64,000 nucleotides of DNA from the NCBI GenBank assembly GCA_016648135.1, contig JADDOH010000477.1:310001-374000 (forward strand), in the 5' to 3' direction. The notes below the pieces were generated by a model, which made no database searches, was not told the origin of the DNA, and was given only the letters and a program-made list of their open reading frames with translations. This document shows positions 4,799 through 33,218 of the stretch, one piece after another. This DNA comes from Agrypnia vestita (taxonomy: Eukaryota; Arthropoda; Insecta; Trichoptera; Phryganeidae). Each line of letters starts with the position of its first letter. The stretch's first letter is position 1. Both the position numbers and the translations under genes were made by a program.

Positions 4799-5131
4799 AA
4801 GAAAAATGTCATTAAAGAGTTAAGGTTGTTATTACGGTCGTTAGACATATTTAACTGTAATTTCGCATATTTTATACGCACCGTATGTATTACCGAGAAG
4901 CGAATCTCGACGCTTCGTTGGATACTTATCCAACGTTATCAGGAGGACGACCTTTACCCGCGTAGGTGGAGGTCAGACTCTCATCCTGACTGACCTCCAC
5001 CTCCGCGGGTAAAGGTCGCCCTCCTGATGACGTTGGATAAGTATCCAACGAAACGTCGAGATTCGCTTCTCGGTAGTACATATGGTGCGTATAAAAAATC
5101 CGAAATTACAGTTAAATAAGAAAAATGTCAT
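4799..5131. mobile_element. Palindromic hammerhead-ribozyme insertion, copy P1, with 14-bp target duplication
   Basis: The direct repeat AAGAAAAATGTCAT occurs at 4799-4812 and 5118-5131. Inside lie a 38-bp unpaired tail (4813-4850), a left arm (4851-4976), a 13-bp spacer and a right arm (4990-5115). The 126-bp arms are reverse complements with roughly nine mismatches. The arms carry a hammerhead core (separate entry). The architecture of direct repeat, one-sided tail and long palindrome recurs at 29.5 and 33.0 kb. Hammerhead motifs with a palindromic helix III are known from Penelope-like retroelements; that this is a non-autonomous member is inference. It sits at the end of a LINE open frame on the minus strand. 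Confidence 0.8.
5021..5060 (+). ncRNA. Hammerhead ribozyme motif in palindrome P1
   Basis: The right arm holds a complete small core. CUGAUGA is at 5024-5030, and helix II is 7 bp (GUUGGAU/AUCCAAC). GAAA is at 5050-5053, followed by CGUC with predicted cleavage after 5057. Helix I pairs CUC (5021-5023) with GAG (5058-5060). Helix III is only the self-complementary ACGU, so activity would be expected mainly as a dimer, as reported for Penelope-type hammerheads. The left arm carries the same motif on the minus strand with damage in both core boxes. Cleavage is predicted from sequence only. Confidence 0.75.
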
Positions 5132-5553
5132 CGCGCGAGTTTATACGTAACGGATTTTGTAAACTGCTCAAAAATTAAATATAAAATATCGAGATCATAG
5201 GTATCTAGAACTCTGTTAATAATACAGTTTTTACCGTAGTTTGTTCTCCAATGTTTTAAGTGGAAAAGGCGTGGTGCTCTTGTTCGTCTCTGCGGGACAT
5301 TAAAGTGTATCGAATTTAAAATTTCACGTGAATCTATGCGATTATAAAGTATTTTGTAAAGGTATTTAATAACGCTTATTGTTCGCATGTCTTCAAGAGT
5401 AGTTATCTCGTGGTACTTATATGAGCCGTCATAGTTATCGAAGTGGACGTGATTTTTGAAATTCAGTGTTTTTGTGAAAGTCTGCTGAATGCGTTCGAGA
5501 CTCTTTTTATGTATTTCGTAGTACGGATACCAAATTGGTGATGCGAATTCCAA
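5128..5553 (-). pseudogene. CR1/Jockey-type LINE, C-terminal end of reverse transcriptase ORF
   Basis: A 141-residue open frame opens with EFASPIWYPYYEIHKK and ERIQQTF, the signature that follows the RT domain in CR1/Jockey-type LINEs (LEYASVIWSPYY...IERVQ). It continues with TTLEDMRTI, a YKIL motif, FNVPQRRTRAPRLF and INRVLDTYDLDIL, the usual closing motifs of these proteins. RT motifs such as YADD and the endonuclease are absent, so this is a 5'-truncated copy. The stop falls inside the target duplication of palindrome P1, so the ribozyme element probably inserted at the 3' end of this LINE copy. Clade assignment is tentative. Confidence 0.7.
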
Positions 5554-5559
5554 AATGCT

Positions 5560-6945
5560 ATGTACATAACAGGAGAATATGCATCTTATTCTTATTCTTT
5601 CATAATCCTTACAATTTAGTTTTCATTACCAATTATTTATTTTCCAGAATATATTTTGAATTGTTATCAATATAACGCCTTTATTACGTTATATGATATC
5701 CAATATAATACGAAGAATTTAGTTAGATTAGAAGACCTTTAGTTATATTATTGTATTATATTTAATCATTTTACGATATTCTGTTCTCATATTTCTGTTA
5801 GTATAATTACGAATTACGGTACGGTAATTACGGATATGAAATTATTCCCATTCTTGTTTAATTTCTATATATCATAGAATCTGGTATCTGTATAGAAATA
5901 CGAAAATTAAGACACTCCATGACCACAAAATATACTACTTATTCTATCGAGTTTTAACTTTATTTGACCATTAAATTGGAATTATTTAATAATAAATTAA
6001 AATTAAAACAGTTGATTTCTAGCATGAATGCTCATTTGTATTTACGTTGGCTGAAGATCTAATTATTTCACAATCATCGTTTGATTAAGAGGTTACACCA
6101 CCGTGAGGCAAAAAAAAAAATTGACGTAACTATTGCATATATTAAATTTGTTTCACTTTCATTGTTTACGGCTTAAATCATTCGTTTTTTTTTCCATAAA
6201 CGAATTATTTTGAAAATATAAAAATAGCGAAGTTGTGTGCTGAACCACAAAGGTCCTTCTCCATGACGCTCGCAGCTGGTGGAGATAATCGTGTCACCAG
6301 GGTTTGAGTGTGAAATCAATATTTTAATTATTTTCTCGTTAATTGATGTAATGTTTTTGTATCCTGCAAATCAGATCAGTATGCGAAGAATTTTTTTTTT
6401 CTAAAAACATCTGATTTAAAATTTCGTATTTGTAATAAATCAGGTGATTTTTTGGAATCTTTGAATAGATAATGCTATATATTGTGTACTAATATGTAAC
6501 TTGTTATAAGCTGTAAAACAGCCATATTAATTTTATTCTCACAAATTTAATTATTTCATTTTGCTTGTTACTCTTATCTGTTACGAAATTGTATTCTAGA
6601 TTATCCTATTTACCGTGATTATTTTAACATATTTTATTTTATTGTATCATATTTTATAGATTGTTATTTGTGATTATATTATTTGATTGCGGTTATTTAC
6701 TAATTTTGTCTTATTTATTCACCATATTTTATAGATTTTCTATCCTGCTTTGCATACCAATTATATCATCTTTTTTTTTCTTATACTTTTAGCTAGCTTG
6801 CCATTACTTTTGTGGATCCATATGAAAGACGCCATTTTGATAAGAAATATTAAACTGTCGTTTGCATTTATTACTATTTTTTTCTGCATCTCGCTTGATA
6901 ATTTTATATATCTTAATATTTTAACAAAATGAGACGATATTCTGC
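5560..6945. other. AT-rich stretch, nothing recognised
   Basis: Very AT-rich with homopolymer runs and no recognised repeat shared with the rest of the window. Short open frames here are dominated by F, I, L, N and Y and look like chance. Confidence 0.45.
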
Positions 6946-6948
6946 GAT

Positions 6949-7436
6949 GACAATCTTAACCTGAAACTTCGACAGCGACTGGTCAAATGTTATATATGGT
7001 CAGTCCTGCTGTACGGAGTGGAATCGTGGACCCTCAAAGTGAGTAGCATGAACCGGCTGGAGGCGTTCGAAATGTGGATACATCGGAGAATGCTCCGGAT
7101 ACCCTGGACGGATATGGTCAGCAACACAAGAGTTCTTCAAAGAGCTAGAGTGAATAGAGAGTTGCTGACAAATATCAAAATCCGAAAGGTATCGTATTTG
7201 GGTCATGTGCTCAGAGGAGAAAAATATGAATTGCTCCACCTGATTCTTATGGGCAAGATAGAGGGTCGTAGAGGTGTTGGAAGGAGACAAATTTCCTGGC
7301 TCCGCAATATACGCGACTGGACGGGCATAAGAAGTGTTGGAGAGCTGTTTCGTGCTGCCCAGGACAGGGACGCTTTCTCTCGGGTGATAGTCAACGTTGG
7401 GGGGACCTGACATGACACCAAAAGAAGAAGAAGAAT
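6949..7436 (+). pseudogene. RTE-like LINE 3' fragment, family B copy 1, with (GAA)n tail
   Basis: The open frame reads through RLVKCYIWSVLLYGVESWTL, LEAFEMWIHRRMLRIPW, VSYLGHVLRGEKYELL, GRRGVGRRQISWLRNIRDW and ELFRAAQDRDAFSRVI. This is the typical post-RT C-terminal domain of RTE-type non-LTR retrotransposons. The frame is intact from the 5' truncation to GGT, then stops, and a short AAGAAGAAGAAG tail follows at 7422-7435, the microsatellite-type 3' end of such elements. RT and endonuclease domains are missing. Related fragments lie at 16.7-17.1 and 57.4 kb. It is a dead 5'-truncated insertion whose intact frame suggests moderate age. Confidence 0.8.
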
Positions 7437-7779
7437 ATTTTTGCTCTTGATTTTTACCGTATGTACTTTCTTTCAAAATAAATATCAGATGTCGATCTAA
7501 GGGGATAAAATTTTTAAAAAAGCTACCTACAAAACAGATATTTAGCGAGGTAGGCAGTGGCTGAGAGGCTTGTTACATATATATTATCCTGATTTATTTG
7601 CATTATGTGTACGTCACTAGCAATCAAATGTCTATCGTCCAATAAACGCCGATTCTTCTGTAACGAAATGAAATTAATGACTCAGATTATTTTTAGAATT
7701 TAAAGCTTTAATAGCTGTAGTTTGCGTCTTTGTTAATAAGCCCTTGTATATATTTAGAGCATATGTTTGGCGATCTACG

Positions 7780-7951
7780 AAGAGACGGCGTAGCAACATG
7801 CGTGAAACGGCCGGTTCGGGTTCGGTGACCCGGGATTTAAATCCGTCTCCGGCCGTTTTTGTAACCGTGAATTCGAACGATGTAACGGACGTTACAGTTA
7901 CGAAGTTACGAGGACAGGCAGACGGACAGACAACGAAATTATTATGTTTGA
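7780..7951 (-). mobile_element. Helitron-like 5' end fragment
   Basis: On the minus strand this begins TCAAACATAATAATTTCG directly after a host A, followed by TGTCTGTCTGCC. The same start occurs at about 23.85 kb (TCTCAATTATAATAATTTC) and 25.76 kb. TC at the 5' end preceded by A fits Helitron insertion. The 3' CTAG end is not identified here. The fragment abuts a LINE tail at 7952 and together they create a chimeric open frame. Confidence 0.4.
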
Positions 7952-7952
7952 T

Positions 7953-8597
7953 AACAGAGCATAAAAATAATTTTGTACCAAAATTCACAAAAACATTTTC
8001 ACAAAGATTTCACCTCTTCCAAGCACCAAAAATATTCAATACTCTTAACACTACACTAAAAAGTTTTAGCCATAGTCTCGCATATTTTTCTTCAAAAGTG
8101 AAACTATGGCTGCATGAAAAGGGAAGGAAGCATGTCCAAAACCTACTAAAATCCATGATATAAACTAAATTTGAAAAATACTAATCCTACAAGAACATTT
8201 ACTTTCATCTTTCTAAATACTTTTAATTGTTTTATTTTATTTTATTAAATATCCTATTCAGATCATTTTTTTCCTTTGTCTATAATAGAATTAATTAATA
8301 CCATTATTAGATTGTAAACATTTAATTCTTACTATTACTCAATTTTAATTGGCAATAATTTTGATTCACAAATGTTATATAAATACTAAATATTCTTGAA
8401 CATTATACTACTGGAAGAGCACTGTCTGCTATAATACAGTAAACTACTAGTGTAGCAGGCAGGGCATCAAATCAATTTAGTGTTTACTTGCTGCCAAGAC
8501 TCTCAGCAACAATGAAAAAAGCTTAATTTAATTTTGTAAACACTAATTGTAAACTTTGTAAACTTTGTAACATTGAATAAACATTGAATTGAATGAA
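7953..8597 (+). pseudogene. CR1-like LINE 3' fragment and 3' UTR
   Basis: The frame reads SQRFHLFQAPKIFNTL, SFSHSLAYFSSKVKLWL and stops at 8161. This resembles the extreme C-terminus of CR1-like LINE ORF2 proteins (APKIYNSLP...FKKKLKxWL). About 430 bp of UTR-like sequence follows and ends in the imperfect repeat CATTGAATAAACATTGAATTGAATGAA, a TTGAAT-type tail. Everything upstream, including RT and endonuclease, is lost. The open frame continues upstream only by chance into a Helitron-like piece. Confidence 0.6.
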
Positions 8598-8599
8598 CT

Positions 8600-8974
8600 A
8601 TTTCTTATTTTTGAAAATGTCAAGGAAAATGTAACCCTTTAATAATTTACTCAGAATATTAAGTTAGAAAATGATTTGTTTATTATTCTCGTGAAATCCT
8701 TCAATCGAGGGTTTTATTATGTTAACAATGCGGTGTTTTGAGCCGAGAAAGTGAATTCGGGGAAATCCACATAGAGGCTGAATTTCGTGATGTTTGTTGG
8801 GGCAGAGTTAAGGAAACACGTGCGTAGTAATATTATTCCGCCGAATAAATTGCGTCGAGTAAATCAGGCAGCGTAATACGTTAATGGCTGGAAACATAAA
8901 TTATTTTCGCGAGGTAATTGAAAGGAGCTTGTTACTGGAGGTGATTAGTGGAACGTGCGCTTTTCTCGCAAACA
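8600..8974. other. Repeat-free, GC-richer island
   Basis: From about 8690 to 8970 base composition rises and no transposon signature is seen. It contains TAATTGAAAGG and CATAAATTATTTTCGCG-type AT-core motifs embedded in mixed sequence, as often seen in conserved non-coding DNA near developmental genes. No reading frame or splice pattern supports an exon. The regulatory interpretation is inference. Confidence 0.3.
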
Positions 8975-9059
8975 ATCATCATCATCATCATCTTCATCCC
9001 CTTGTCCTAGTAGGTCTGGGGCCCAGAGACTCGACGAGGCTCCTTAAGCATGAGTCAAC
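8975..9059 (-). mobile_element. LINE 3' end, family D, part 1 of 2 (interrupted)
   Basis: On the minus strand this is the last stretch and (ATG)n-like tail of a LINE. It matches 23.66-23.745 kb (CCTACTAGGACAAGGGGAAG) in order and sequence. The rest of the same element continues at 11361, after a 2.3-kb insertion. The 8-bp site GAGTCAAC at 9052-9059 is duplicated as GAGTTAAC at 11361-11368. Confidence 0.8.
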
Positions 9060-9125
9060 TAGTGATGGGTCTGCTCTGTAGTACTGCATTACATTGCAGT
9101 GTACACTTCACACTTTTTGAAGTGT

Positions 9126-9438
9126 ATTTATTTATTTATTTAATGTTCATGGAAGACCAACAGCACAAAAAAAAAGCATAGAAAACATTGATACAATATA
9201 GATGGTCAATTACAGGTCTCCACATTTAGAAATATGTCAGTAATGATAAATATTTATGAATGACTAAGGCATATTAAAAATTATATAGAAAGAAAGAATA
9301 AAAAATTAAAACAAAAGAAAAAGAAACTTAATTATTACTTGGAAAAAAAATTCAGCATTCAAAATTTTTCTTAATCTTGTGTGGCTGCACTCGAACAGAT
9401 CAATATCCAATAATCTTATCAGTTTATTGCACACTAAA
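9126..9438 (-). mobile_element. CR1/Jockey-type LINE 3' end nested in the hAT-like element
   Basis: On the minus strand it reads NKLIRLLDIDLFECSHTRLR, the closing motif of CR1/Jockey ORF2, then 3' UTR and an (AAATA)n tail that abuts 9126. The UTR segment 9140-9300 is nearly identical to 31975-32150, implying the same fairly young family. Only the last residues of the protein remain. Confidence 0.65.
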
Positions 9439-9802
9439 AACTGTAGTGCACACTAAAAACTACACACACTTCAAAGTTATTGAAAGTATATACTTCAAAT
9501 AGTACATTTCATTTCAAAGCGAACACTACAAAGTACACACACTTCAAAGTTATCGAAAGTACGAGCACATACTTCAAATAGTAGATACATTTTTTATGTG
9601 AAATTTTTGGGAAGTCGATGTAGATAAATGAAGAAATTTTTGGAAATCGAAGCAACCCTCCCCTCCACGCTTTGAAAAAATTTTGGGACCGAACGAAGAA
9701 ATCTCTGGAAACTGAAACAACCCCCCCACCCCATGGTTGGCGACCTCTTTTTTTTAGGTCGCCAAATGTTATTTTACCGAAAAATGTCGATATATTCATA
9801 TA

Positions 9803-11114
9803 TTAGGTCCTTACATATGAAATTGGCGTTTTGCCGTACTGGCAAATTTGATCTCAAATATCTTCTCTTTGGTTAGGAATTCCAAATCCAAATTTATACA
9901 GCTATTTACTCATGTATTTTTGTTTTGAAAATTATAATTCATTTGTTTTTTCCTCAATTGTTTTTTTCTTTGCGTCACTCAGTTTACAAAATGAAAAACT
10001 TGAAATATCGCGTTATTTACGAGTAGGAGTTCCACCGTGGCACCAGTGCTGCAGAAACGGCTCGAAGGATTAATGATGTGTATGGCGACGGTGCCGCAAA
10101 AGAAAACACAGTGCGTTTTTGGTTCCAACGTTTTCGTTCTGGAAATTTCGACCGCTGCCAGGGAACAAGCACCGGACGGCCGAGACCAAAGTTGATAATG
10201 AAGAACTTGAAAGGCTATTGTGGAAGCGGATCCATCGCAAAACCACATCCGAGTAGGCAGGCTGCTGGTGTAGTGATAAAAACTGTTTTAATCCACTTGA
10301 AGCAAAGGGTAAGGTGTGAAAAAGCGTGAAGGTTGGGTACCTGACGAATTGAGTGAAGCAAAAGCAATATCAACAAACGCGCGTTGATGCTGCGTGCATT
10401 ACTCAACCGGCCTACAAAAATGAAGGGATTTTAAATCGAGTCATTAACCTGTGATGAAAGTGGATCCTGTACGATAATAGGAAGTGATCATCGCAATGGA
10501 TGAAACCCGGCAGTAACACCAGCCAAACATGCCCCAAGCGAAAATTGACTCCAAAAAAGTACTGTGAGAGTTTGGTGTGGACTAATGCTGTTGTCGTTCC
10601 CATACAGCTTTCTTTAAAATCTGGCCAGACGATTACGGCAGATGTCTTATTGTCAGCAACTGCAAAACAATGATGGAAAAGCTAGTGCTTAAACAACGAG
10701 GATGGTTAATCGCTCTAGGCCACCTGCGTTTCATGATAACGGCTATAGACCACATGCACTGTAACAGACAGACTTACCCAAATTAGAGGAGCTTCAATTG
10801 GAATGTCTAAGACATCCACCGTACTCTCAGGACCTTGCCCCAATAGATTACCATTTCTTTCGAAATTTGGATAACTTCTTGCAAAGGAAAAAATTCAACT
10901 CCGATGGGGCAGTCCAAACCGCCTTCAAAGATTTTATTGATTCCCGTCCGAATGGTTTTTTTAGTAAAGGGATCGATGAACTACCTATGAGATGGCAAAA
11001 GTGCATAGATAGCAATGGTACATACTTTGATTAAATAAATATATTATAATAAATAAAAAAATCGGCTTTATGTTCCTCCCATACTAAACGCCAATTTCAT
11101 ATGTAAGGACCTAA
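9803..11114 (+). mobile_element. mariner element, about 1.3 kb, with 29-bp perfect terminal inverted repeats
   Basis: The termini match for 29 bp, starting TTAGGTCCTTACATATGAAA, and a TA dinucleotide flanks both sides (9801-9802, 11115-11116). Length (1312 bp), TA target and internal transposase remnants identify a full-length mariner of the Tc1/mariner superfamily. It inserted into the hAT-like element, so it is the younger of the two. The intact ends contrast with the broken gene inside. Confidence 0.93.
9991..11034 (+). pseudogene. mariner transposase pseudogene
   Basis: Homology runs over most of a mariner transposase but with stops and frame changes. The N-terminal DNA-binding half shows GTSAAETARRINDVYGDGAA and RFWFQRFRSGNFD (10045-10155). 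The first catalytic region, TCDE followed after a one-base shift by KWILYDNRK, is at about 10447-10480. HDNGYRPH is at about 10733 and the last catalytic Asp is in YSQDLAPIDYHFF at about 10820-10860. The last 78 residues (10798-11034) are open and end in RWQKCIDSNGTYFD, the normal mariner C-terminus. Spacing between the last two acidic residues is 36 rather than the usual 34. The motifs resemble cecropia-type mariners; subfamily is not certain. Confidence 0.9.
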
Positions 11115-11360
11115 TATTTTTTCTAGCGAGCTTTTTTTTAGTCACCAAACTTTTTATTTGGGAAAAATTACAAAAAATATAATTACTACAAATTTGTAGT
11201 ACAATTACTTCATTGATACTACAATTATTTCATTATTTCATTTCATTAGTATTACAATTACGTTTTTACTACAAATGTAGTGTACACTTTGTAGTCTTTA
11301 AACTGGTGAACGTGTGTGTGTTGTAGTCTTCATTTTGAAATGTAGTTTTTCCCTTCGCTA

Positions 11361-11755
11361 GAGTTAACTAGTCCAGACCCGTTCTGTTTTCATACACATT
11401 TTTTGTTGCTTCTCCCAGCTTAATCTAGGCGACCCATCGGCCGTCTTCCTTTCGGGGTTGCGTAGAGGATTTTCCTGGTAATAATTTATCAGACATTCTT
11501 AGCACATGTCCAAGCCACTTCATTTGTGATTTTTCTATATGTAGGAGTAGGGGCTAAATGCCGAGTGTGTGCCCTATATTGGCATTTCTCACTCTGTCCA
11601 TCAGTGTGACTTAGAAAACTCATCTTCTGGATGCTTGCTCTCACTCTCTCCGTCAGGATCCAAATTTGATGGTCTGTCTTAAAGCCGTTGCGGGGTTTGT
11701 CCAATCGCCACTACTGATATCGAAAAACTGAGTCATAAACTCAAGGGACACTTGA
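11361..11755 (-). pseudogene. LINE 3' fragment, family D, part 2 of 2
   Basis: Continuing from 9059, the minus strand encodes broken pieces of an RTE-like C-terminus: KTDHQIWILTERVRASIQKM, an RNANI-like piece and RKITNEVAWTCAKNV (compare SQMKWLGHVLRM in related elements), followed by GKSSTQPRKEDGRW. Several frame changes separate them. The part nearest the insertion matches the family D tail at 23.56-23.66 kb. Confidence 0.65.
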
Positions 11756-11759
11756 TCCT

Positions 11760-14384: not shown

Positions 14385-14580
14385 CTTCTGTGTGTATAGT
14401 TTTCTGGGATATTCTGCCGTGTATATGTGACCTCTCTGGCCGACGTTTCTGATCCCATTGCAGGGTCCATCATCAGTGCCTACACTTCAACATATGTATC
14501 CATCACACATGCGACACTAGATCCTGAGCACCAGAAGATTCTCCCGGTCGGGTGGGAACCTTTCCTTGGTGGATGTTCAA
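14385..14580 (-). mobile_element. Hammerhead-family (Penelope-like) remnant, copy P4
   Basis: Positions 14385-14476 are closely related to the arms at 29.5 and 33.0 kb: CTTCTGTG, TTTTCTGGGATATTCTGCCG and the ribozyme block. On the minus strand CUGAUGA (14470-14476), a helix II with one mismatch and GAAACGUC (14442-14449) are preserved. Helix I has decayed next to the core. The other arm is not a palindromic copy here, although AGAAGATTCTCCCGG at 14533 resembles the one-sided tail of the palindromic copies. This may be closer to the parental, non-palindromic structure. Confidence 0.6.
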
Positions 14581-19072: not shown

Positions 19073-20127
19073 CATTCATTAATACTATATGCCTTCGCAA
19101 ATACATTAAACACACACTGAAGTCCTATGTGTGTTAATTTCCTAGTTATATGGGAATGCATATCGCATAAACATTAAGTGCCGCGTCATTTTTATATAAA
19201 TAAGGCACTAAACGTGATGAGTATTTTGTAGCTTTTAGTATTAAAATGACCAACTCACGTGACGTACCGGCGTATAGCAGTGTTGAAAATATTCATGAAA
19301 ATGTATGTAAAATTGCACATAAAGAGAGAAAAAGACTTATCCCTTTTTACCTTTTATCTTAAAATAAACATTCTGGCACATAGTGCTTTATTCATTTTCA
19401 GTATTAATTTATTTTCTAGGAGGTTAGTTAAAAAAAACTCCATAATTACACATAAGGAAATTAAATCACTTGTTTTGATATATTTTTTTGATTTTTATGA
19501 TACGCGCTTCTCCTTATGAGGGCATCATCAGAAGTATTAAGTAAGTTTTAATACAAGTGAAATAAAATGACAAAAAAATATATTTTTCCGATTTCTGCAT
19601 AAAATTTACTTGTATTAAAGTGAAAGAATTTTTGATGTTGTGTATAGGTACTGTAATGATAGTCCAATTTATTACACAAAAAAATCAGATTTTGGAAAAA
19701 ATGCAATCTTTTATGTCGTTTATCTCCTTACTGTCAACATTTCACCAAAAGTGTAAAGAGTATTTTCGATTGAAAATTGACTACAGAAGACTCACTCGAA
19801 GTTGTAAATTTTGAAGAAACAGCAAATTTTGTTGTAGCCAAAGTGGAATTCGGAGTTTTTCCATTCATTCGTATACCGCGGTTTTCGATAGATTTTTTTT
19901 CGCTGGATTTAAACACACTTTTTAAGGTACCCTTGGATTACAAAGCAAAATATTTAAAAGGGTAAATATTCAGGTTGTTCATGGGAATTCACAATAGAGG
20001 CACATTTCACCGAGGCATAAATAAATTGAAGTCACGCTACAAAGAGCCTTAAAGCGCCGATGCTCGAGTGTTCTCGGGCCCAGAAAGTGGGCTCTGGAAG
20101 TGGATACAGATACGCGTCCCATATATA
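19073..20127. other. Non-coding; decayed hammerhead relic and partial inverted-repeat element
   Basis: On the minus strand CUGAUGAUGCCC at about 19523-19534, followed by GAGAAGCGCG, looks like a decayed hammerhead core. About 19600-19740 matches the right half of the long inverted-repeat element at 53.2-53.35 kb (ACTTGTATTAAAG, GTAATGATAGTCCAA). No gene is supported in the rest. Confidence 0.4.
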
Positions 20128-20129
20128 TA

Positions 20130-21115
20130 CAGGCGGACCTCGACTTTCGAACATTCGACTTTCGCACAATTCGCTATTTCGCACATGTCGCGCTGTGGGG
20201 TAAAGATATCCCCTCTCGTTTGCTCACAAGCAAGTGGAATTCTGGCATCACTTGCATCTTTCTTGCTCCCGTCACTTTGCTTGTGAGCTAGCTAGGATAG
20301 AGATTTAGTCTTGCGCAGGAAGGAAAGATGATAATTTACCACTTAAAATATTATTAATCTTAGACAATGCTCCAGGACACCCAAAATCTCTACAGAATTT
20401 ATACATGGAAATCAATGTTGTGTTTTTTCTTCCCAATACTACCTGCCTTATACAGCCTATGGACCAAACGGTGATAGCTATGTTTAAACGATAATTATAT
20501 GAGGTCAATAACGACTCAGGCTATCGAGGCAACTGACAGGGAAGGTGGGCCTACATTAAAAGATTTCTGGAAGAACTAGAATGTATAAAAGCGTGGACAT
20601 ATATGAGGATGTTAATGAGATTATAAAATCTCACTCAGAACCTCTAACAAATGAATATTTAATTGAGCAACATGAGTATGAAAATGAAAGTGAGGAAGAA
20701 GAAGCTGATGAAATTATCAAGACTTTAATAATGAAAAATATGAATGAAAACTTCATGCATCTTGACAAATTTTTAAATATAATGGAAGATTGTGATCCCA
20801 ATGGAGAACGCATATCTCGAATGTGCAGGCCGATCAATAAAGACATAGCATGTTATAAAATATTATATGAAGAAAAGAAAAAGAGTGGCAAACAATTAAC
20901 TCTTGATAACTTTTTAACTAAACACCCGCAAACCCCACTTAAGCATGTCTCTTAAACCACTTTAAAGCCTCTTAAACATCATATATTTACTTGATATATA
21001 AATATTATAAAATACATACAATTTTAATTTTTTTTTACTTCCCTCTACTTTCGAACATTCAACATTCGCACACATTTTCAGGAACCAATTATGTGCGAAA
21101 GTCGAGGTCCGCCTG
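20130..21115 (+). mobile_element. Tigger/pogo-type DNA transposon, internally deleted
   Basis: The inverted termini CAGGCGGACCTCGACTTTCG match perfectly for 20 bp and TA flanks both ends (20128-20129 and 21116-21117). CAGGC...CCTCGACTT-type ends and a TA target are typical of Tigger elements of the Tc1/mariner superfamily. The element is 986 bp against more than 2 kb for a complete one, so most of the N-terminal transposase is deleted. Beyond the TA, both flanks carry similar sequence (GATACGCGTCCCATA left, GATACGCGGCCCATA right). Confidence 0.92.
20318..20955 (+). pseudogene. Tigger transposase, C-terminal remnant
   Basis: One frame reads LPLKILLILDNAPGHP (20336-20383), FFLPNTTCLIQPMDQTVIAM (to about 20484) and stops at 20491. 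Another picks up ATDREGGPTLKDFWKN. A third, open from 20581 to 20955, gives the acidic C-terminal tail ending KSGKQLTLDNFLTKHPQTP. DNAPGHP contains the second catalytic Asp and QPMDQ the third. The CENP-B-type DNA-binding region and the first catalytic Asp are lost. The 124-residue open tail could look like a small gene but is only the transposase C-terminus. Confidence 0.9.
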
Positions 21116-21119
21116 TATA

Positions 21120-21436
21120 TAGATACGCGGCCCATACACACGTGCGCGCAGATACACGGATAAGAGATTCACTCTCAGGGAAACATTTTAGTGTACAATC
21201 GAGTTCAGTGCGATATTTGTCGGAATGTCTTTGATCTGAAATGAGGGCACAAAGCGAACAAAAAAGGCAGAGAGATTCCGGGAATTGTAAGGGGGGAGGA
21301 GGCGGGAGGTCGGAGGCTGGGCGCACCGCTCCAAAGTGACTCGAGATATTTTAATTGATCACAATAAAGGGCGGCTCGTATCGCAGCGTAAGAATTTAAG
21401 ACGTACAATAAGATCCGTTAACGAAAATTAATACAA
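21120..21436. other. GC-richer, repeat-free island
   Basis: About 21120-21420 contains mixed-composition sequence with a G-rich block (about 21285-21315), CACAATAAAGGGCGG and AATTGATCACAATAA. No transposon motif or supported frame was found. It may be conserved non-coding DNA. Confidence 0.3.
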
Positions 21437-22282: not shown

Positions 22283-22284
22283 TT

Positions 22285-23553
22285 TAGGTACCATTTCGGT
22301 TCCGATGGAAGAGGATGCACGGACCAGATTCTCTCACTGCGCCAGATGTCGGAAAAGTTTTTGGCAAAGAACCAACAACTTTTTTGTGCCTTTGTGGATC
22401 TCCAAAAAGCGTATGACAGAGTGATAAGACGAAAGTTATGGAAGGTTTTGTCTGAATATGGGGTGAAGAGTAAACTCATACAAGCAATTGCATCCCTGTA
22501 CGAAGGAAGTAGTGCTTGCGTGAGAATTAATGGGACATTCACATCATGGTTCGATATTACAAAAGGTGTCAAACAGGGATGCGTAATGTCACTATGGCTT
22601 TTCAACCTGTATATGGATAATTGTATGAAAGAACTGAAGGAACTAGAAGTTGGAGCGAAAATGGACGGACTCACCATATCCTGTCTGCTATACGCAGACG
22701 ATGCAGTATTAGTGGCTAACAGTGAAGCTGATCTGCAGTGCCTGGTATCCAGGATGTCCGATGTTTGCATGCAGAGTGAACTTCTGATGAATGTCAGCAA
22801 ATCGAAAGTGATGGTATTCGAGAGAGACGAAAGAGTGACTAAGTGTGATGTAATTATAAACAACGAATGCTTAGAACAAGTGAACGAGTTTGTGTATTTG
22901 GGAAGTATATTTAGTAGAGACGGCAAGGCTGAGAATGATATCGAAAGGAGAGTAACTGCGGGAAACAAAATTAATGGTGCACTAAATGCAATTATGGCCA
23001 ATAAGAATCTGTCAAAGGAAGCAAGACTAGCGGTACATAATGGCGTTCTAGTGCCAATCCTTATGTATGGAAGTGAAGCCTGGAATTGGCAAAAGAGGAA
23101 TGAAAGTAGACTGAATGCGGTTGAAATGCGGTCACTAAGACGCTTGTGTGGAAAATCTTTGAACGATAGAGTGAGGAATGAACAAATTAGAAGTGAATGC
23201 AATGCTGGCTGTAGTGTGGTAGATAGAATAAAGAAAGGAGTGCTCAGATGGTTTGGTCATGTGGAACGTATGAACGAGGAAAGGATGGATAAGAAAATAT
23301 ATGAGGCGAGTGTTGAAGGCAACAGGAATAGAGGGCGTCCGCGAAAGACCTGGCACGATCAGGTACTATTACTACTAGTACAAGTATTTGAGGATGGCCC
23401 TGTTAAAAGCCGCAACAACCGTAGAACGTGTATGAGAAGATGTATGAATGTGGCCGAAGCAAAAGTGGTGTGCCAGGATAGAAGAGTGTGGCGTTCAGTC
23501 CTCTCTGCCTACCCCTGCGGGGAAACGGCGTGATGGTTAGTTAGTTAGTTAGT
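22285..23553 (+). mobile_element. 5'-truncated non-LTR retrotransposon (LINE), family A copy 1
   Basis: The body begins at about 22306 with SDGRGCTDQILSLRQ, part of the RT finger region, and runs through the protein end to a (GTTA)n-type tail GGTTAGTTAGTTAGTTAG at about 23534-23553. Five further copies lie at 18.4-19.1 (-), 29.9 (+), 35.3 (-), 49.3 (+) and 55.4 (-) kb; the tail is best preserved in those at 35.3 and 55.4 kb. The endonuclease and N-terminal RT are missing. Motifs are RTE-like, but clade assignment is tentative. Confidence 0.85.
22346..23533 (+). CDS. Reverse transcriptase C-terminal half of LINE family A
   Basis: This 395-residue frame is the longest in the window. The first catalytic Asp lies in FVDLQKAYDR (residue 18). 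GVKQGCVMS follows at 74-82 and LLYADDAVLVA at 114-124 supplies the YADD active site. Then come NVSKSKVMVFER, EFVYLGSIFSRDG, VLVPILMYGSEAW, VLRWFGHVERM and RGRPRKTW. The true frame continues upstream of this Met as GRGCTDQILSLRQ, so the Met is not a natural start. A CTATTACTACTAGTA expansion at about 23363-23380 inserts LLLLV-like residues after HDQV. MSLWLF replaces the usual MSPWLF. It reverse-transcribes element RNA at nicked DNA in intact relatives; this copy lacks the endonuclease and is not autonomous. Confidence 0.88.
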   Translation: MSEKFLAKNQQLFCAFVDLQKAYDRVIRRKLWKVLSEYGVKSKLIQAIASLYEGSSACVRINGTFTSWFDITKGVKQGCVMSLWLFNLYMDNCMKELKELEVGAKMDGLTISCLLYADDAVLVANSEADLQCLVSRMSDVCMQSELLMNVSKSKVMVFERDERVTKCDVIINNECLEQVNEFVYLGSIFSRDGKAENDIERRVTAGNKINGALNAIMANKNLSKEARLAVHNGVLVPILMYGSEAWNWQKRNESRLNAVEMRSLRRLCGKSLNDRVRNEQIRSECNAGCSVVDRIKKGVLRWFGHVERMNEERMDKKIYEASVEGNRNRGRPRKTWHDQVLLLLVQVFEDGPVKSRNNRRTCMRRCMNVAEAKVVCQDRRVWRSVLSAYPCGETA

Positions 23554-23745: not shown

Positions 23746-23754
23746 AGTAAGTAT

Positions 23755-23850: not shown

Positions 23851-24104
23851 TTTAATCATTCTTCATTACAAGTGAAAATAACATTAAGGGCTGGTTTTAT
23901 CAACTTGGATTGTAACTGGCGACGACAGATGAAACTGTGAAGCCGGTACGCGTGCGCACTGCGCGCGATTTTTAGCATCTAAACCTTTTTTTCGAGACAG
24001 TAAATATCTATTGATTTTGATCTTGCTACTCCTCTTAGATCACCACGTATTAAAAATAATAAATAATAAACAAAACTTTCATTTTCATTGGACACAAGTA
24101 CGTA

Positions 24105-25063: not shown

Positions 25064-25069
25064 AATTCC

Positions 25070-25981: not shown

Positions 25982-25984
25982 TAT

Positions 25985-26600
25985 TAGAGAAAGTAAAGAA
26001 AAATTACATAGGTGTAGAATGTTATTAATAAGTCTTTTCGTAACAGTGTGGGATGATACGGCTTCCTTTGGCATTAGTTTCTTGTAACGTTTCAATAAAT
26101 CTTTAAAACGCCAATATTAATAGTAAAAAAAAACACATGAAATCAATCCACAAATAAAACATGTCGGGAATAAGAAAGCATGGAAATAGTCGGTATCTAC
26201 ATTCTACATAAATATATTCTAGAGATGAATTAACATTCCCTTTGCCTGTTTTATTAACGTGTGGAAATAGGCATGATGACAGATTTTGAAATAAAATTGA
26301 TACACTACATACGATTTTATTGATATACGCATTAGGGTGTGTCACTTTGTATGGCGAAAAAAAAAAGTTTTTTAATTATTGAAATATGAATTAAACACTT
26401 AAATTTATTACGTATAATATGTAGAAACTTTACGACGGTTCAAAACAAGTAAGCTAACAAATACAACCGTTCGGTGTGGAGTCTGACCTAATGAGGCACG
26501 CATAACGGGAGGGCGACCCGAAACAAGCCGAAATTGCCCGAACGGGGGTAGGTATTTAAGCTAACAGATTATCAAAATGAACTTAAATATGGCGTTTTTC
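25985..26600. other. Non-coding stretch, nothing recognised
   Basis: AT-rich DNA with a short less AT-rich patch at about 26465-26545 (GGGCGACCCGAAACAAGCC). No gene or recognised repeat. Confidence 0.4.
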
Positions 26601-26675
26601 TTTTTTAAAATAGAGATGCTAACACGGAATACGTGTCGCATCAATATTCTTAATATTCTCAAACTAAGCCAAAAG
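26601..26675 (-). mobile_element. tRNA-headed SINE, family S1, 3' fragment
   Basis: The minus strand carries only the SINE body, TTGATGCGACACGTATTCC and TTAGCATCTCTATTTTAAAA, matching 48.98-49.05 and 58.32-58.38 kb. The tRNA-like head is missing; an LTR-like sequence adjoins instead. Confidence 0.5.
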
Positions 26676-26689
26676 TTACTGGTGTCCTA

Positions 26690-27110
26690 GAATGGGGCTC
26701 GTTAAATGGGAATGGAGAGTTAAATTAAGTTTTTATTTATCACTAAAGTTACTCAACACCAATTCAAATCACTAAGAGTTTATAGAATATTTGACACAAT
26801 TATTATTCAATATTTGAATTAACACTAATTATCTCTAGCCACACTTCTGTAGAACACTTTTTTAATACGCTATTTCTGTTGCATAGATCACTATCGAGAA
26901 TATTCCGCTCAATTTTGCACGTAAGTACTCGGCCGAATATCTGTCACTCGGTTATACATGCGCTGGTCACACCGCTTTGTCGCTACGCTTTCGCTGGTTT
27001 TATAACTCGCGCGCGCTTGCTTTCGCCTTTTTATACAAAACGGATTGGTTTTCAAATGGTTGAGTCTATTCTACACATTTCTAGTATTCCCTTGACATTT
27101 CTATGAGAGA
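26690..27110 (-). mobile_element. LTR-like promoter region, family L2 copy 1
   Basis: On the minus strand a TATA-like GTATAAAAAGGCG precedes GTGACAGATATTCGGCCG, TACTTACGTGCAAAATTGAG and GGAATATTCTCGATAGTGA. These align in order with 48.02-48.12 kb (GCGACAGCGATATTCTGG, TTCTTACGTTGCGAAA, GGAATATTCTAGTGAATAG). Downstream is ATAAATAAAAACTTAATTT, a plausible polyadenylation region. No gag or pol is seen, so a solo LTR or 5' leader relic is inferred. Confidence 0.35.
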
Positions 27111-27114
27111 ATAT

Positions 27115-29499
27115 CCCTGTCGAGTTCAGAGTGTTGTGGAATATTAGAGAGATTTTGATAGTGCGTAATTTCTTCCGATTTTACGTATTGTGCCCATTTT
27201 ATCTAAAAGGCTTCAAAAAATAATTTAATAATTATTTTGGGGTAATTCAAAAACCCCGCGTCAGAACAGACGGAAATATTTCGGCATAGTAAGGGAAATG
27301 ATAATACAGTGCAAAGTATAGCTGGTATCGGTATCGGTTCCAAGAGCCCGCCATGTGCTCGGCCGCCCCTGTAGCCGGAGGTGGCTTTGTTGTTAGATCC
27401 AGGGTAGTGTAATGAATTTGAGGGTGCGGACGTGTCTGGATTTAACGCCTTTTTCCTCCCCTGCCCCTCGAGGCGAAAACAATAAAATGAATACTTGATC
27501 AAAGAACCGAAAGGGTAGGCTATAAACATAAGACAGACATATTTCCTTTCGTGTTCCTCGCAACAGCCGCTGGAGATTTCATTTAAATGTGTCGGTGCTG
27601 GGGGTTGGGGTGGGAGCCTCCCTCTCGTTAGGGCTCTGTTAATAATATCATCGCAAATACCGGGGATAAAAGGAGCAATTTAAGGGTAGGTGGGCTACTG
27701 ATTCGTGCTGATGAATAACGTGAACTTTACGTATAGAATAGACATAATTATATTTTAAATGTCGAAATTACGACGGAACCACAACATCTTCTAGAACTCG
27801 TCAGATTATCGAACGCAAGCAATAATAACTAAAACAGTTATAATAATATTATTTATTATTATAATTTTACTCGAGTACGGAAACTCTCATCGAAAAATAA
27901 ATTATTACACTGAATATAAAATAAAAGATCGCAAACTTCTATGATGTATGTAGGATTTTAGGGATGAAAACAATATAACGACTTTTAAAAAAAAAAATTT
28001 AAAATATGTGATATAAACTTTTGAATAAAAATTTAATACACTTATATCTTATGGTGTATACATGAGGAAATATAAAATTATTGTATTACCTACTTAAGAA
28101 TAAAAATACAGTACAAAAAACAATACCAAGAATAAATAATATCTGACCATTGGCTTCTGCAGTTTGTTAATTTGTTTGTAGAATATATTTTCATTTGGAA
28201 AATGGTTGCACACGTACGCTTAGTGACAGAGTAAATAATCAATTCATAAATAAGAGCTTTTCCGCGCAGCTTCGCACGCGTAGATTTTTAGTAAGTTTTA
28301 GTCATATATTATCAATTTGTATATTAAATTTAACATATAAATATGTTATCTTTTGAGTTATACAACTTCTCTATAAGAATTATTTAAATATCTCTTACCG
28401 TTAAAGCAGCATCCGTCAAAAATGCATCGCTCCATCATTTTTCGTCGACTTTAGTTGTAAAATAGTTATATAAGTAGTTTCGGAGATAACCTTCTACATA
28501 CAAACATACAAACTTGATCTCTTTATTATATTAGTAAAGATGAAGCATTGAGAATAGGTTTTAAAAAGCTTTGTATAGATTTTTTAATTCCATGGAACGA
28601 ATGAATAAGTAAGAAAATAATGATAAGAAAGGTATCAGATATGAATTTTGACGGCATCGGAAATATTGAGTCTGTTGGAAAAATTGGCACGAGCAGGCAT
28701 GAGAAGGCGTATTGGAAGATGGCGTAGTCAAATCGAGTAGATAAAGATTTTGCTAGAAATCCAGGGTTAATCAAATTCTTGGACTTGGTTTATCTTTAAT
28801 AAAACATTGAATTTAAATGATCTACACAAAAAGTGAAAGAAGAGGTCCAATAATATTTCGGATCTCACCGCTAGACTGCGCATAGCTCGACTACTAGGGT
28901 GCTCGCGCCACCAAACAGCCATTTCACGCCAATTGCGAGTATAACGGCTACTTTGCAATAGCTGATACATATTAATTCTCTGGTTGAAGGTTCAATGTTA
29001 AAATGGTGATAAAATAAAAATACAATTGCCGAATCAGTTTTACAGAACTCACGAACACAGAAAACCTTGTACTGCATAATGACCATTTCACTCACAACTG
29101 ATGCAAAATGTCTATAGGGCGGCGCAGGAACTTAGCGGTTATTTGCGAAAAACGAGCGATGTATTGAAAGTAACTAAGTTTTGAATCCCTTCTCTAGGTG
29201 GAATTCAAAATTTTCAAACCCTCTTTTCAATTGCTATGTAGATTATTCACATAAGATGTATAATTCGGAAAACATAGCCTTATGAAATTGAGTCCATCAT
29301 TTTGAATAACCTTGTACGTGACATACATGTATATTGTATGAATTCTCTTTAACATCTTTTAAATTTATATAAAGCCTCATCTCATTACTAAGCATGTTTG
29401 GAGTTTTTTTTTAAAAAAAAACGTATAAGTAAGAAAATTACTTTCATAAGGCTTCAGTTAGGCACTTTCTCGTGATTTCCATAAATATATTCAATCTTT
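27115..29499. other. Non-coding stretch with mixed-composition patches
   Basis: About 27255-27720 is less AT-rich with no recognised repeat. About 28255-28300 contains CGCGCAGCTTCGCACGCG, resembling the Helitron hairpin region of 16.4 kb in inverted orientation. About 28435-28545 matches a Helitron-like block at 12.45-12.65 kb. About 28860-29130 is also mixed in composition without recognised features. No gene supported. Confidence 0.4.
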
Positions 29500-29740
29500 T
29501 TAAAATGAGAATCTTCAAGTTTGTGTTTACTGGGGTATTATGCCGTGTTGTTACGACCTTTCGGGCCGACGTTTCGGATCCCATTGCAGGGTCCATCATC
29601 AGGGCTGATGTTGGACCCTGCAATGGGATCCGAAACGTCGGCCCGAAAGGTCGTAACAACACGGCATAATACCCCAGTAAACACAAACTTGAAGATTCTG
29701 AGTGGCCGTGAAAACCTAAGAACATTCTTAAAATGAGAAT
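29500..29740. mobile_element. Palindromic hammerhead-ribozyme insertion, copy P2, with 13-bp target duplication
   Basis: TTAAAATGAGAAT occurs at 29500-29512 and 29728-29740. Between them are two 89-bp arms (29513-29601 and 29606-29694) that pair with a single mismatch at the tip around loop GGGC. A 33-bp unpaired tail follows (29695-29727, ATTCTGAGTGGCCGTGAAAA and so on). The near-perfect pairing implies a recent origin or gene conversion between arms. The tail resembles the one in P3 at 33.13 kb. Confidence 0.85.
29565..29605 (-). ncRNA. Hammerhead ribozyme motif in palindrome P2
   Basis: Reading the minus strand from 29605: helix I strand GCC, CUGAUGA (29602-29596), U, helix II GGACCC/GGGAUCC with a bulged A and loop UGCAAU, GAAA, then CGUC with predicted cleavage after position 29568, and GGC closing helix I. 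Helix III is the self-complementary ACGU. The plus-strand copy in the other arm reads CUGAUGU, losing the essential A, so only the minus-strand transcript is predicted to cleave. Confidence 0.75.
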
Positions 29741-29892
29741 ATTCAGCAAATGTGAATAATTCAAAAACATTTTTCGATTTCATTTTTATCTGATAGACAG
29801 ATATCGGAGAAAAATGTTTGGTATTTCAAATTTTTTTTGAAATAGAAAACATTGTATTGTAATACGTATTATATTTTTAAATTGCCTGAAAT

Positions 29893-30180
29893 TATTCTGA
29901 ATGATAGCAGATAGTAAATTCAAAGCGATGTTCCAGAAACTAGATGAGAGAGATGTAACTAAATGTGAGGTAATGGTAGATAATAAATTCCTGGATTTTG
30001 GTTTTTGGTAAGTATATTCACTAGGGATGGCAAGTTTGAGAAATATATCTAAAGGAGAAATTATGTGATGGGTGCTATGAATACGTTCATCGAACGTGGA
30101 AATTTGTCATGATCAAAATATGAGGTGCATAATGGATTTCTGTTGCAAGTATTAATATATGGAAATAATCTTGGAATTAC
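29893..30180 (+). pseudogene. LINE family A fragment, heavily decayed
   Basis: Scattered matches follow the order of the 22.3-kb copy: DERDVTKCEVMVDNKFLDF (compare DERVTKCDVIINNECLEQ), a SLGMASLRN-like remnant of the FSRDGKAEND block, and VHNGFLLQVLIYG-like sequence. Frame changes are frequent. Both ends are truncated. Confidence 0.6.
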
Positions 30181-30260
30181 AAAAAAAAAATTAAGAGAAT
30201 TGTAAAAATATTTTTAATATTTAAAGCATTAACTTTGAGGTCAGACATTTTAATAAAATG

Positions 30261-30839
30261 TTATTTATGTAAGTATATTACCATTAAAAATTACTTTTTT
30301 GTCTACCGGTTTCGAGACATAACCCATATTTTCGTCAGGACAACCACTACACTATCATGTAAATATTACTATACACCACAACCACAGTATAGTAAACATA
30401 CAGTATTACACCTTCATACAAACAGCCGAAACGACGCCCTTCGAAATCTCGGTATACTTCGGTCTGCGCGGTCGCCGCAGGGCTGCAGTAACGTACGGAT
30501 GCAAGCAGTGTGAGACGCTCCCGCGCATACATTTACGTCAATTTATGGCATCCCAAACCCTAAAGAGTCAGTCAATGAGCAGCCCTGGTGCGTGTTTAAC
30601 CAAGTTTAAGTACCAAGCGGCCGTAGGTATTTATTTCAAGGACAAGGACAACATACTGTATACTTTACCAAACTGTGCCACAACCATATGATTATTTATA
30701 TACCAATACCTTCACCAAAACCAAGGTGTGTAGTGATATTTACATGCTAATGTAGGGATTGTGCTGACAAAGAAAAGGGTTTCGTCTTGAAACCGATTGA
30801 AAAAAAGTAATTTTAGTGGTTATATACTAACATAAATAA
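30261..30839. mobile_element. Inverted-repeat element with hammerhead-type ends
   Basis: The left 30261-30349 and right 30748-30839 segments are imperfect inverted repeats of about 90 bp. Both contain a CUGACRA...GAAACCGRUUG/GUAGAC-like hammerhead block. The roughly 400-bp interior is partly GC-richer (30440-30540, CTGCGCGGTCGCCGCAGGGC) and has no coding. This resembles P1-P3 but with unique sequence retained between the arms. No clear target duplication was found. Confidence 0.55.
30299..30344 (-). ncRNA. Hammerhead-like motif, ACCGGU-type, left arm
   Basis: Minus strand: helix I UUGUC, CUGACGA (30338-30332), a poorly paired 18-nt helix II region, GAAA, CCGGUA, then GACAA completing a 5-bp helix I. 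Helix III is the self-complementary ACCGGU. The core boxes are intact but helix II is weak, so activity is doubtful. The right arm has CUGACAA in place of CUGANGA. Confidence 0.5.
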
Positions 30840-31385
30840 AAATTTTAGAATTGTATAAAGATTGAAAACAAACCCCCCAAAAATTTCAAGTTTCTGATTA
30901 TACTTATGAGAAACGTTTAAGGTTTCTCTTCCTTTGTTATAAACTTAACATTCCTGGGAAAGTTTTAATTTAAAAGTTGAGTTCTGTAAACACTTTTAGG
31001 AGACATTATTCCAGGAAGGTTTCAACACACACAAAAAGACCGGCATTTGTTTAGTGTATGTTAGGGATTTCAAAAATTACTTGCCGTGAATTTTCATCTA
31101 CTTCGGATAAATGTTTGATTTTCTCACAATACAAATATAACAATGGAATTGCGTAGAAAGATAAAATGAGGGGCATAAAAACAAAGGTAGCAATATCCAA
31201 AAAATTAAAAAAATGTTTTGAAAGCAGTCACCGAGGATTACTTATTTAAGATTTACTGAATTCGAGATTTTTAGGATATATAGCTCTATCTCTTTCAAAA
31301 TCATGTTTCAAAATATATACTATTAAAAGGTAAGATAGCAATATCCTATTCAATACAACCCCCAAGGATGTGTCACGTGACAAAA
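30840..31385. other. Non-coding stretch, nothing recognised
   Basis: AT-rich with no recognised repeat or frame. Confidence 0.4.
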
Positions 31386-31955
31386 TCTGCAGATCTGTAC
31401 CGATCGATCGATCGGACTCAAAATTTGGAAACTTGTACTTTAGGACCCGGTGGGTAACTTAGGTGATATTTCCCCCCTCCCCTCATATATTTTAAATGCA
31501 AATCTGTACCTTTCGACCGATCGGACTCAAAATTTGCAAACTTATTTTTAGGACCCGGCGGCTAATATAAGTGACATTTTCCCCACCCCTTTCCCCTATT
31601 CTCTACGCTGTTATATTTTCTGTACAAATCTACACTCTATGAAAAATTTCATTTTTATTCTTCAAGATCCAGCGGGTAATAGAGACTACAACTTTTTCCC
31701 TCTCCCCTCTTACCACGCCCCCTCACCTGACATATTTTCTTTACAAATCTACACCGTTTGCCGATCTCACCCAAATTTCGCATTCTTATTTCTTTGGTCC
31801 TGGCGGAATACATAGGTGACGATTTCCTCTTAGACATCCTATCCATCCCAGCCTAGATTACACGGAAACATTGTTTTAAGAGTCTTTGCAAAACAATGAA
31901 TCCTTTGTGTCCCGTTACAAACTAATTTTTAACTAAGTCCTTAAGCAGTGCAACT
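31386..31955 (+). mobile_element. Helitron-like tandem-module element, copy 1 (decayed)
   Basis: It contains about four modules of the type CTGTACCGATCGATCGATCG...CAAAATTTGGAAAC...TAGGACCCGGTGGGTAAC...TTCCCCCCTCCCCTC, as in the element at 52474-52986. The right part, AACTAAGTCCTTAAGCAGTG and CAACTGTGGGTA, corresponds to the 3' end there but lacks CTAG. Non-coding. Confidence 0.5.
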
Positions 31956-31956
31956 G

Positions 31957-32152
31957 TGGGTATTTATTTATTTTTTATTTATTTAATATTCATGGAAGAC
32001 CAACAGCACAAAAAAAGCATAGAAAACATTGATACAATATAGATGGCCAATTACAGGTCTCCACATTTAGAAATATGTCAGTAATGATAAATATTTATGA
32101 ATGACTAAGGCATATTAAAAATTATATAGAAAGAGAGAATTAATATATAGAT
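31957..32152 (-). mobile_element. CR1/Jockey-type LINE 3' UTR fragment
   Basis: The segment is nearly identical to 9120-9300 (GTTCATGGAAGACCAACAGC-like, GGTCTCCACATTTAGAAAT, GAATGACTAAGGCATATT) and carries the same (AAATA)n tail on the minus strand, seen as TATTTATTTAT at about 31966-31985. Only UTR remains. Confidence 0.65.
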
Positions 32153-32414
32153 AGTTAATTATATTTTCCACGTAAATGGTTTGGTTTACATTTGAAAATT
32201 CAATTTTCTACCACCCGAAAGAAAAAAAAACTCGTACACAAGTTAGCATTTTTCCGTTCTCCAGTAAAATTTTATTTAGCCCGCATGATCAATTTCCCGG
32301 TGAGACCGCGCGACATCGTAGTCCGGTAGACAACAGCCCCAGTTTCGAAGGTTCCAAAGGAGGTTGTATACAGAGGGGATCAAAAAATGCAGTTACACAG
32401 TAATGCAAATTTAT

Positions 32415-33218
32415 CTCTAAAAGAGTGTGCTAAAAAATACCTTCGGAAACGGTGGTGTAACACAGTGTTACATGATTAAAAATCGACATAGTTTTTAATA
32501 TGTGGTAAAAAAATATTTTTAATACAGATAAGAATTTTTAAAGGTCCCATTATATAATTATGTAAGATAAACATACATATTTGCATTATTTTGATAAATT
32601 ATCATAAAATCATGGTATATCGAAATTGCCTGCGCTCACGCCGACGTATCATTACCAACTAAATTCAACGACGCGGCGACTGCAGTCCGTCTTTGTCTAA
32701 CATGTGTTACGCGACTCTACCGCGCTCTTTTGATATTGTTTTCTGTTTCACCGAAATCCAAACAACCACCATCTCTGTTCTACATGAAATGTGTGGTATT
32801 ATCGTGCTCTTTCTTGCTCGATTTAACTGCAACGTGCAATATTCGGGTCTCTTTTACACAGTGGCCGAAAATATGAGAGTAATGAATAAATTCTTTTCAA
32901 TTAAAAAATCTGTACATTCTTCACAATTTAATTTAGCCATTTTGGTGTGAAAATGTCTATTCGATGATTCCAAAAAATGTGACATTTTAGTTTTTGTAAA
33001 TAAGGAAGATATTTCATATTCTTCTGTGTATAGTTTTCTGGGATATTCTGCCGTGTGTATGTGACCTCTCTGGCCAGAGAGGTCACATACACACGGCAGA
33101 ATATCCCAGAAAACTATACACAGAAGATTCTGAACGGCCGTGAAAACCTAAGGACATTTTTAATATTTCATATTTTCTATGACATGTAGACCTACGTTAC
33201 ACCACCGATACACAGGAG
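32415..33218 (+). mobile_element. DNA transposon family N1 copy 2, split by a palindrome
   Basis: Ends carry CGGTGGTGTAAC and GTTACACCACCG, which are exact complements of each other even though copy 1 has CGGTGATGTAAC/GTTACATCATCG. Both ends of this copy changed in a matching way. The landmark order of copies 1 and 3 is retained. A palindromic insertion with its own 12-bp duplication interrupts it at 33021-33174. Confidence 0.65.
33009..33174. mobile_element. Palindromic hammerhead-family insertion, copy P3, with 12-bp target duplication
   Basis: ATATTTCATATT at 33009-33020 is repeated at 33163-33174. Between them is a perfect 106-bp palindrome (33021-33126, two 53-bp arms with no loop) and a 36-bp tail beginning ATTCTGAACGGCCGTGAAAA, like P2. 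The arms correspond to the outer half of P2 and P4, but the ribozyme core is absent, as if deleted symmetrically at GGCC. Copies 1 and 3 of N1 give the uninterrupted site with one ATATTTCATATT. Confidence 0.88.

Follow-up and report, generated by a model that had tools for sequence, protein, structure and literature searches.

Background

Penelope-like elements (PLEs) are retroelements whose described peculiarities include inverted pseudo-long terminal repeats (pLTRs) and short 3' extensions (PMC8969392; this and the other papers given by number are cited from excerpts). Poseidon of Anolis carolinensis has been studied as a purified PLE protein, which cleaves the two strands of its target, extends both of them and prefers AT-rich ATT sites (PMC11167929). 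Its reverse transcriptase (RT) starts internally at two template positions, with the genomic tail of 30–40 bp lying between them, and the choice of start site is alike on both strands. The most frequent start lies 111–118 nt into the open reading frame (ORF), which itself begins at stem II of a hammerhead ribozyme that is cut 26 nt past the start codon (PMC11167929). Here we describe three short palindromes, designated E1, E2 and E3, from the trichopteran insect Agrypnia vestita, in a stretch of 64,000 nt (assembly GCA_016648135.1, contig JADDOH010000477.1, positions 310,001 to 374,000, forward strand) that is referred to below as the window and numbered from its first base. They are very probably PLE insertions, members of a class already known, with a form that is unusual in being short and double-ended.

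In the rotifer Adineta vaga, Penelope elements (Pen2a_Av and others) have inverted pLTRs, an optional 31-bp tail on one of these, duplications of 8–10 bp and palindromes at their junctions (PMC3846280); the word hammerhead is absent from that paper. PLE hammerheads are described as minimal forms that may cleave as dimers and whose function in PLEs has been called unknown (PMC7761336). Type I hammerheads also occur in the non-LTR retrozymes of metazoans, which are small and have no ORF (PMC7229834).

Results and discussion

An inverted-repeat search of the window identified E1 (4813–5117), E2 (29513–29730) and E3 (33021–33162) as near-perfect palindromes, with arm pairs reported by the search at 4848–4976/4990–5118, 29508–29602/29605–29699 and 33013–33073/33074–33134, respectively. 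A preliminary description of the same DNA had given arm lengths of 126, 89 and 53 bp; the variation in length stands, with refined values of 128, 90 and 55 bp. The two arms differ at 8/128 positions in E1, 1/90 in E2 and 0/55 in E3. In all three palindromes the arms are inverted head-to-head, in keeping with PLEs, whose pLTRs are inverted or tandem, and a tail is present on one side only. With the end of the tail-less arm taken as site B and the end of the tail as site A, the distance from B to A is 36 nt in each case, in agreement with the 33–38 bp proposed earlier. The final 3 nt of the E2 tail coincide with the flanking duplication and can be assigned to either (the alternative being a 33-nt tail with a 3-nt microhomology). 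The E2 and E3 tails have the same base at 32/36 positions. The E1 tail is similar to the E3 tail, with a score reached in 0/2000 shuffles, and its likeness to the E2 tail is lower (as high a score in 6/2000).

Self-comparison of the window revealed two further relatives of E2 and E3 that had not been listed before, K14 and K46, both of which are single arms (Table 1). K14 matches E3 at 54/55 aligned bases with one 2-nt gap, and has no tail motif like that of E2 and E3. The bases just past the hammerhead remnant of K46, GGGCTGATG, match the centre of E2. Similar end positions had been claimed for the arms, and this holds: the boundary at site B, GAAG, is common to E2, E3 and K14, and the distance from the predicted ribozyme cut to site B is 60 nt in E1, 55 nt in E2 and 57 nt in K14, with 55 nt from GGCC to site B in E3. 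Outer ends are fixed and centres are variable across the palindromes. The copies form two families, one consisting of E1 alone and the other of E2, E3, K14 and K46; E1 is tied to E2 and E3 through its hammerhead, its geometry and the weak tail similarity.

E1, E2 and E3 are each flanked by exact direct duplications of the 12–14 bp claimed previously, and these exceed chance. Among 4000 random placements per element (equal spacing, ±3 slack), 12 bp was reached by 0, 0 and 3 placements for E1, E2 and E3, respectively, the real junctions having been set after the duplications were seen. The E3 duplication is the weakest of the three, because its 12-mer is AT-rich and present five times on the plus strand of the window. 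Six further pairs of inverted repeats in the window, including two nested ones, have duplications of 3 to 6 bp at a slack of ±6.

A palindrome between direct duplications is also what an inverted-repeat DNA transposon, such as a miniature inverted-repeat transposable element (MITE), or a foldback transposon would leave. Symmetric terminal inverted repeats do not extend to both ends here, however, since one end carries the 36-nt tail; the centre varies while the outer ends are fixed, hammerhead landmarks are present, and duplications of this kind are missing at the six other inverted pairs. A DNA transposon is accordingly very improbable, as had been argued before on the simple inverted-repeat type. 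Chimeric reads can yield near-perfect inverted copies as well, but an assembly or read foldback artefact would have to produce three duplications of 12–14 bp, homologous end positions in separate copies and the eight differences between the E1 arms, and is hardly conceivable.

Hammerhead cores were defined by CTGANGA, a helix II with 3 bp or more and GAAAC, with a stricter set having CGTC next. Four sites in the window fit this descriptor, three of which have CGTC: 5024 (plus strand, E1), 29602 (minus strand, E2) and 14476 (minus strand, K14). Sixty dinucleotide shuffles gave no site with CGTC and a mean of 0.08 sites of any kind. By this descriptor, a minimal type I hammerhead is present in the pLTR of E1, E2 and K14 and absent from E3; that of K46 is degenerate. 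The earlier notion of a palindrome with hammerhead thus applies to two of the three, E1 and E2, in both of which the core is intact in the arm without a tail and damaged in the tail-bearing one, and fails for E3. The hammerheads have no helix III of their own, as in PLEs, and their ACGU is self-complementary. Dimeric cleavage of PLE hammerheads poor in helix III was reportedly described by Lunse et al. in 2017, and minimal PLE hammerheads are said to have been described by Cervera and de la Pena in 2014. The predicted type I cores without helix III and with self-complementary ACGU resemble such minimal dimeric forms, from which they differ in the damage to one of the two cores in each pair.

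Rfam listed no hammerhead, either at gathering thresholds or at E values up to 10. Its matches to microRNA families on the palindromes (mir-2545, mir-788) were well below gathering scores and were read as mere hairpin shape. When folded in full, every insertion is predicted to form a single long hairpin, which would lock the E1 and E2 hammerheads and probably render these copies inactive in cis. Outside the window, a loose hammerhead pattern matched nine contigs of the viral_contigs set, in near-identical groups with higher GC contents of 0.48–0.55; these were set aside as probable chance matches, and no such palindrome was seen by eye within 250 bases on either side of them. Two stricter patterns against viral_contigs and one against genome_contigs gave no match.

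The landmarks of E2 can be compared with those of Poseidon. By hand count, the intact arm of E2 has three in-frame ATGs 32, 29 and 17 nt before the cut, and site A follows at a distance of 123, 120 or 108 nt, depending on the ATG chosen. The hammerhead near the ORF start of Poseidon is cut 26 nt after its ATG, its RT start at 111–118 nt corresponds to a tail end at 108–123 nt here, its tail of 30–40 nt to one of 36 nt, and the targets are AT-rich in both (PMC11167929). Unlike Poseidon as described there, the palindromes consist of the pLTR start only, on both sides and without an ORF body, and no enzyme gene was seen at the insertions. Inverted pLTRs, a one-sided tail, duplications and a palindromic junction are shared with Penelope of Adineta vaga, in which the inverted pLTR adjoins a longer element, whereas here two inverted pLTR starts are the entire insertion (PMC3846280). 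No paper naming hammerhead-bearing palindromes of two pLTR starts only surfaced in our literature search, which is not proof that none exists.

Inverted pLTRs, a tail in the 30–40 bp range, short duplications and a minimal hammerhead all match published PLEs, and we hold the PLE origin of the insertions, already suggested in the preliminary description, to be highly probable. The same description had suggested that the set may define a retrozyme-like or Penelope-derived non-autonomous system. A separate system is not needed, because the tail and inverted pLTR are known from PLEs in the literature (PMC3846280, PMC11167929), and insertion of a PLE with severe 5' truncation would leave a similar structure. 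In its favor, the copies are small and have no ORF, metazoan retrozymes carry type I hammerheads and have PLEs as their proposed movers (PMC7229834, PMC7761336), and their duplications can be longer than usual (PMC7229834), so that a retrozyme-like or short interspersed element (SINE)-like family might be mobilized by a PLE enzyme via small or circular hammerhead RNAs. Retrozymes are, however, described as tandem repeats of ~150–450 bp (PMC7229834), and the insertions are neither tandem nor in direct orientation nor of a common length. Their hammerheads lie within inverted arms of unequal size and share with PLE hammerheads the lack of an own helix III, and the window self-comparison gave no direct tandem copies, only inverted copies and dispersed single arms. 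We therefore regard a separate family as improbable.

E1, E2 and E3 are best explained, and we think probably, as severely 5'-truncated Penelope-like insertions primed on both target strands, with each arm deriving from a different start site and the two being joined at the point where copying stopped. A GIY-YIG endonuclease would cut the two strands of an AT-rich target ~12–14 nt apart, and each of the two resulting 3' ends would prime reverse transcription on PLE RNA. One complementary DNA (cDNA) would start at site A, the tail end, and the other at site B, 36 nt upstream; both would extend briefly 5' into or through the hammerhead region and stop at the template end or where the enzyme stopped. 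Joining of the cDNAs at their far ends, in E3 at least via a short self-complementary end, and fill-in would produce a head-to-head palindrome with a one-sided tail and a flanking duplication. The outer ends, which fall at two sites with a spacing of 36 nt, the variable centres, the duplications and the hammerhead landmarks are read directly from the sequence; from these we infer two-strand priming, the use of two RNA molecules, their joining and, in E3, a ribozyme-cut RNA.

The preliminary description had invoked an RNA-templated foldback product, of which the RNA template is well supported. The foldback itself corresponds to self-priming, in which the end of a single cDNA (or of an antisense template) folds onto the same strand and primes the copying that creates the palindrome. 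This has been proposed for the palindromic junctions of rotifer Penelope, with an antisense template (PMC3846280), and the near or full identity of the arms (1/90 mismatches in E2, 0/55 in E3) would suit it. Snap-back of a whole cDNA should, however, place the tail in both arms, and the tail is one-sided in 3/3 palindromes; moreover, site B, where the arm without a tail stops, is the same in E2, E3 and K14. Two target-primed cDNAs joined at their far ends give the one-sided tail directly. Self-priming is hence unlikely, if the least so of the alternatives considered here.

The centres of the palindromes lie at different places: at the predicted cut in one of three (E3), at the start of the hammerhead core in one (E2, with CTGATG in both arms and GG between them) and elsewhere in one (E1, ~34 nt upstream of its core). 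The position in E3 was judged by K14, a copy of the same subfamily that continues upstream through the hammerhead and whose predicted cut coincides exactly with the start of the E3 arms at GGCC. The E3 arms have one GGCC in common rather than two in tandem, as expected if two cDNA ends annealed via GGCC and were then filled in. Both E3 templates appear to end at the hammerhead cut. It is possible, though we hold it to be doubtful, that the centres of PLE palindromes record template 5' ends and that E3 reveals hammerhead cutting of template RNA in vivo, its cDNAs having run off at the cleavage site and been joined by GGCC. K14 and K46 were left uncounted for centre position, because their similarity ends where the E2 arm ends; an arm end at the hammerhead core start was dropped for both, since their detection depended on a match to E2, the arm of which stops there, and E2 is left as the sole example. 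A second, different PLE arm beside K14 (14480–14575), which would have counted against self-priming, was also dropped: its best common stretch, of 11 nt, matches the E3 arm/tail boundary with a score of 22, where 1415 random pieces gave a 95% point of 20 and a 99% point of 23.

A number of observations weigh against priming on both strands of PLE RNA as the origin of the palindromes, or against parts of it. Strand-independent choice of start sites, as described for Poseidon (PMC11167929), would lead one to expect A/A and B/B palindromes as well. Ends of the A/B type in 3/3 are compatible with chance at n = 3 (1 in 8 if each choice were even) but unexplained, and they speak against two priming events that are wholly independent of each other. 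GGCC is self-complementary and one of eight self-complementary tetramers in the K14 arm, so annealing alone could have chosen the E3 centre. In the Poseidon study, RNA-seq showed no ends at the ribozyme cut, and templates with a mutated hammerhead were still inserted in vitro (PMC11167929); both results also bear directly against a ribozyme-cut template in E3. Folded alone, the three hammerhead pieces form helix II and not the full three-way junction, which may be expected of a form without its own helix III. E1 has no blastn match to E2 or E3 in the self-comparison, and duplications were found in 3/5 copies, with none of at least 9 bp for K14 or K46 in the ranges searched. The window yielded no PLE ORF, and no RT or GIY-YIG gene was seen at the insertions. 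E2 and E3 have an open frame across arm and tail, with 12 tail codons whose peptides differ by one residue. Its 30 codons show 3 synonymous and 10 non-synonymous changes, spread over codon positions as 6, 8 and 7, with no purifying selection; given this even spread, the frame by itself is no coding evidence. A protein search with the 42-aa peptide, for which only short proteins were eligible, returned no homologue.

RVT_1 was detected in only one of six frames tested, a 416-aa frame at 22283–23530 (E = 3.5e-25) that is separate from the insertions and represents a fragment like those of long interspersed elements (LINEs). LINE-like frames are present in the window, the GC content of which is 0.31–0.40 in 4-kb pieces. 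At 20121–21124, 34-bp inverted repeats (94%) lie 936 bp apart around a 131-aa frame without a Pfam match and resemble a DNA transposon remnant. Near E2, nested inverted repeats of 79–80% identity (30255–30845, ~590 bp overall) are MITE-like, with a duplication of at most 6 bp at the arm ends. A long simple repeat at 54103–54702 is open in several frames. An Rfam tRNA match on the minus strand at 3170–3242 (31.4 bits, E = 0.013) is possibly a tRNA-derived SINE; ARAGORN predicted no tRNA in the window.

Table 1. Positions of the palindromes, their parts and their relatives in the A. vestita window
Feature	Position	Strand	Remarks
E1 duplication, 14 bp, AAGAAAAATGTCAT	4799..4812 and 5118..5131		Exact repeat
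E1 tail, 36 nt	4813..4848	- (sense on minus)	36 nt past common arm end; like E3 tail
E1 tail-bearing arm, damaged hammerhead (CTGATAA, GAAGC)	4849..4976	-	Inverted-repeat and arm comparison
E1 inverted arm without tail	4990..5117	+	Inverted-repeat and arm comparison
E1 minimal type I hammerhead core, intact	5024..5057	+	Helix II of 8 bp in predicted fold; predicted cleavage after GUC at 5057
K14, lone arm of E3 subfamily, with hammerhead 14476–14442 and arm end GAAG	14385..14480	-	Self-comparison, descriptor
E2 duplication, 13 bp, TTAAAATGAGAAT	29500..29512 and 29728..29740		Exact repeat
E2 inverted arm without tail	29513..29602	-	Inverted-repeat and arm comparison
E2 minimal hammerhead core, intact, inside inverted arm	29568..29602	-	Descriptor
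E2 tail-bearing arm, damaged core (CTGATGT)	29605..29694	+	Arm comparison
E2 tail, 36 nt	29695..29730	+	3 terminal nt overlap duplication
E3 duplication, 12 bp, ATATTTCATATT	33009..33020 and 33163..33174		Exact repeat
E3 inverted arm, without hammerhead, starting at GGCC (predicted cleavage product end)	33021..33075	-	Arm comparison
E3 tail-bearing arm, 0/55 mismatches to inverted arm, GGCC 33072–33075 in common	33072..33126	+	Arm comparison
E3 tail, 36 nt	33127..33162	+	Arm-end comparison
K46, decayed relative, degenerate hammerhead, probably extending into tail	about 46136..46266	-	Self-comparison

Conclusions

Our analysis places odd palindromes of A. vestita in a known retroelement class. 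As natural examples they fit the in vitro biochemistry of PLEs, in which both strands are extended and two internal start sites lie one tail length apart. If the E3 centre does mark a ribozyme cut, the hammerhead would have a role in finishing short insertions, and a genome-wide clustering of palindrome centres at the cut would make the role of the PLE hammerhead testable from assemblies alone.

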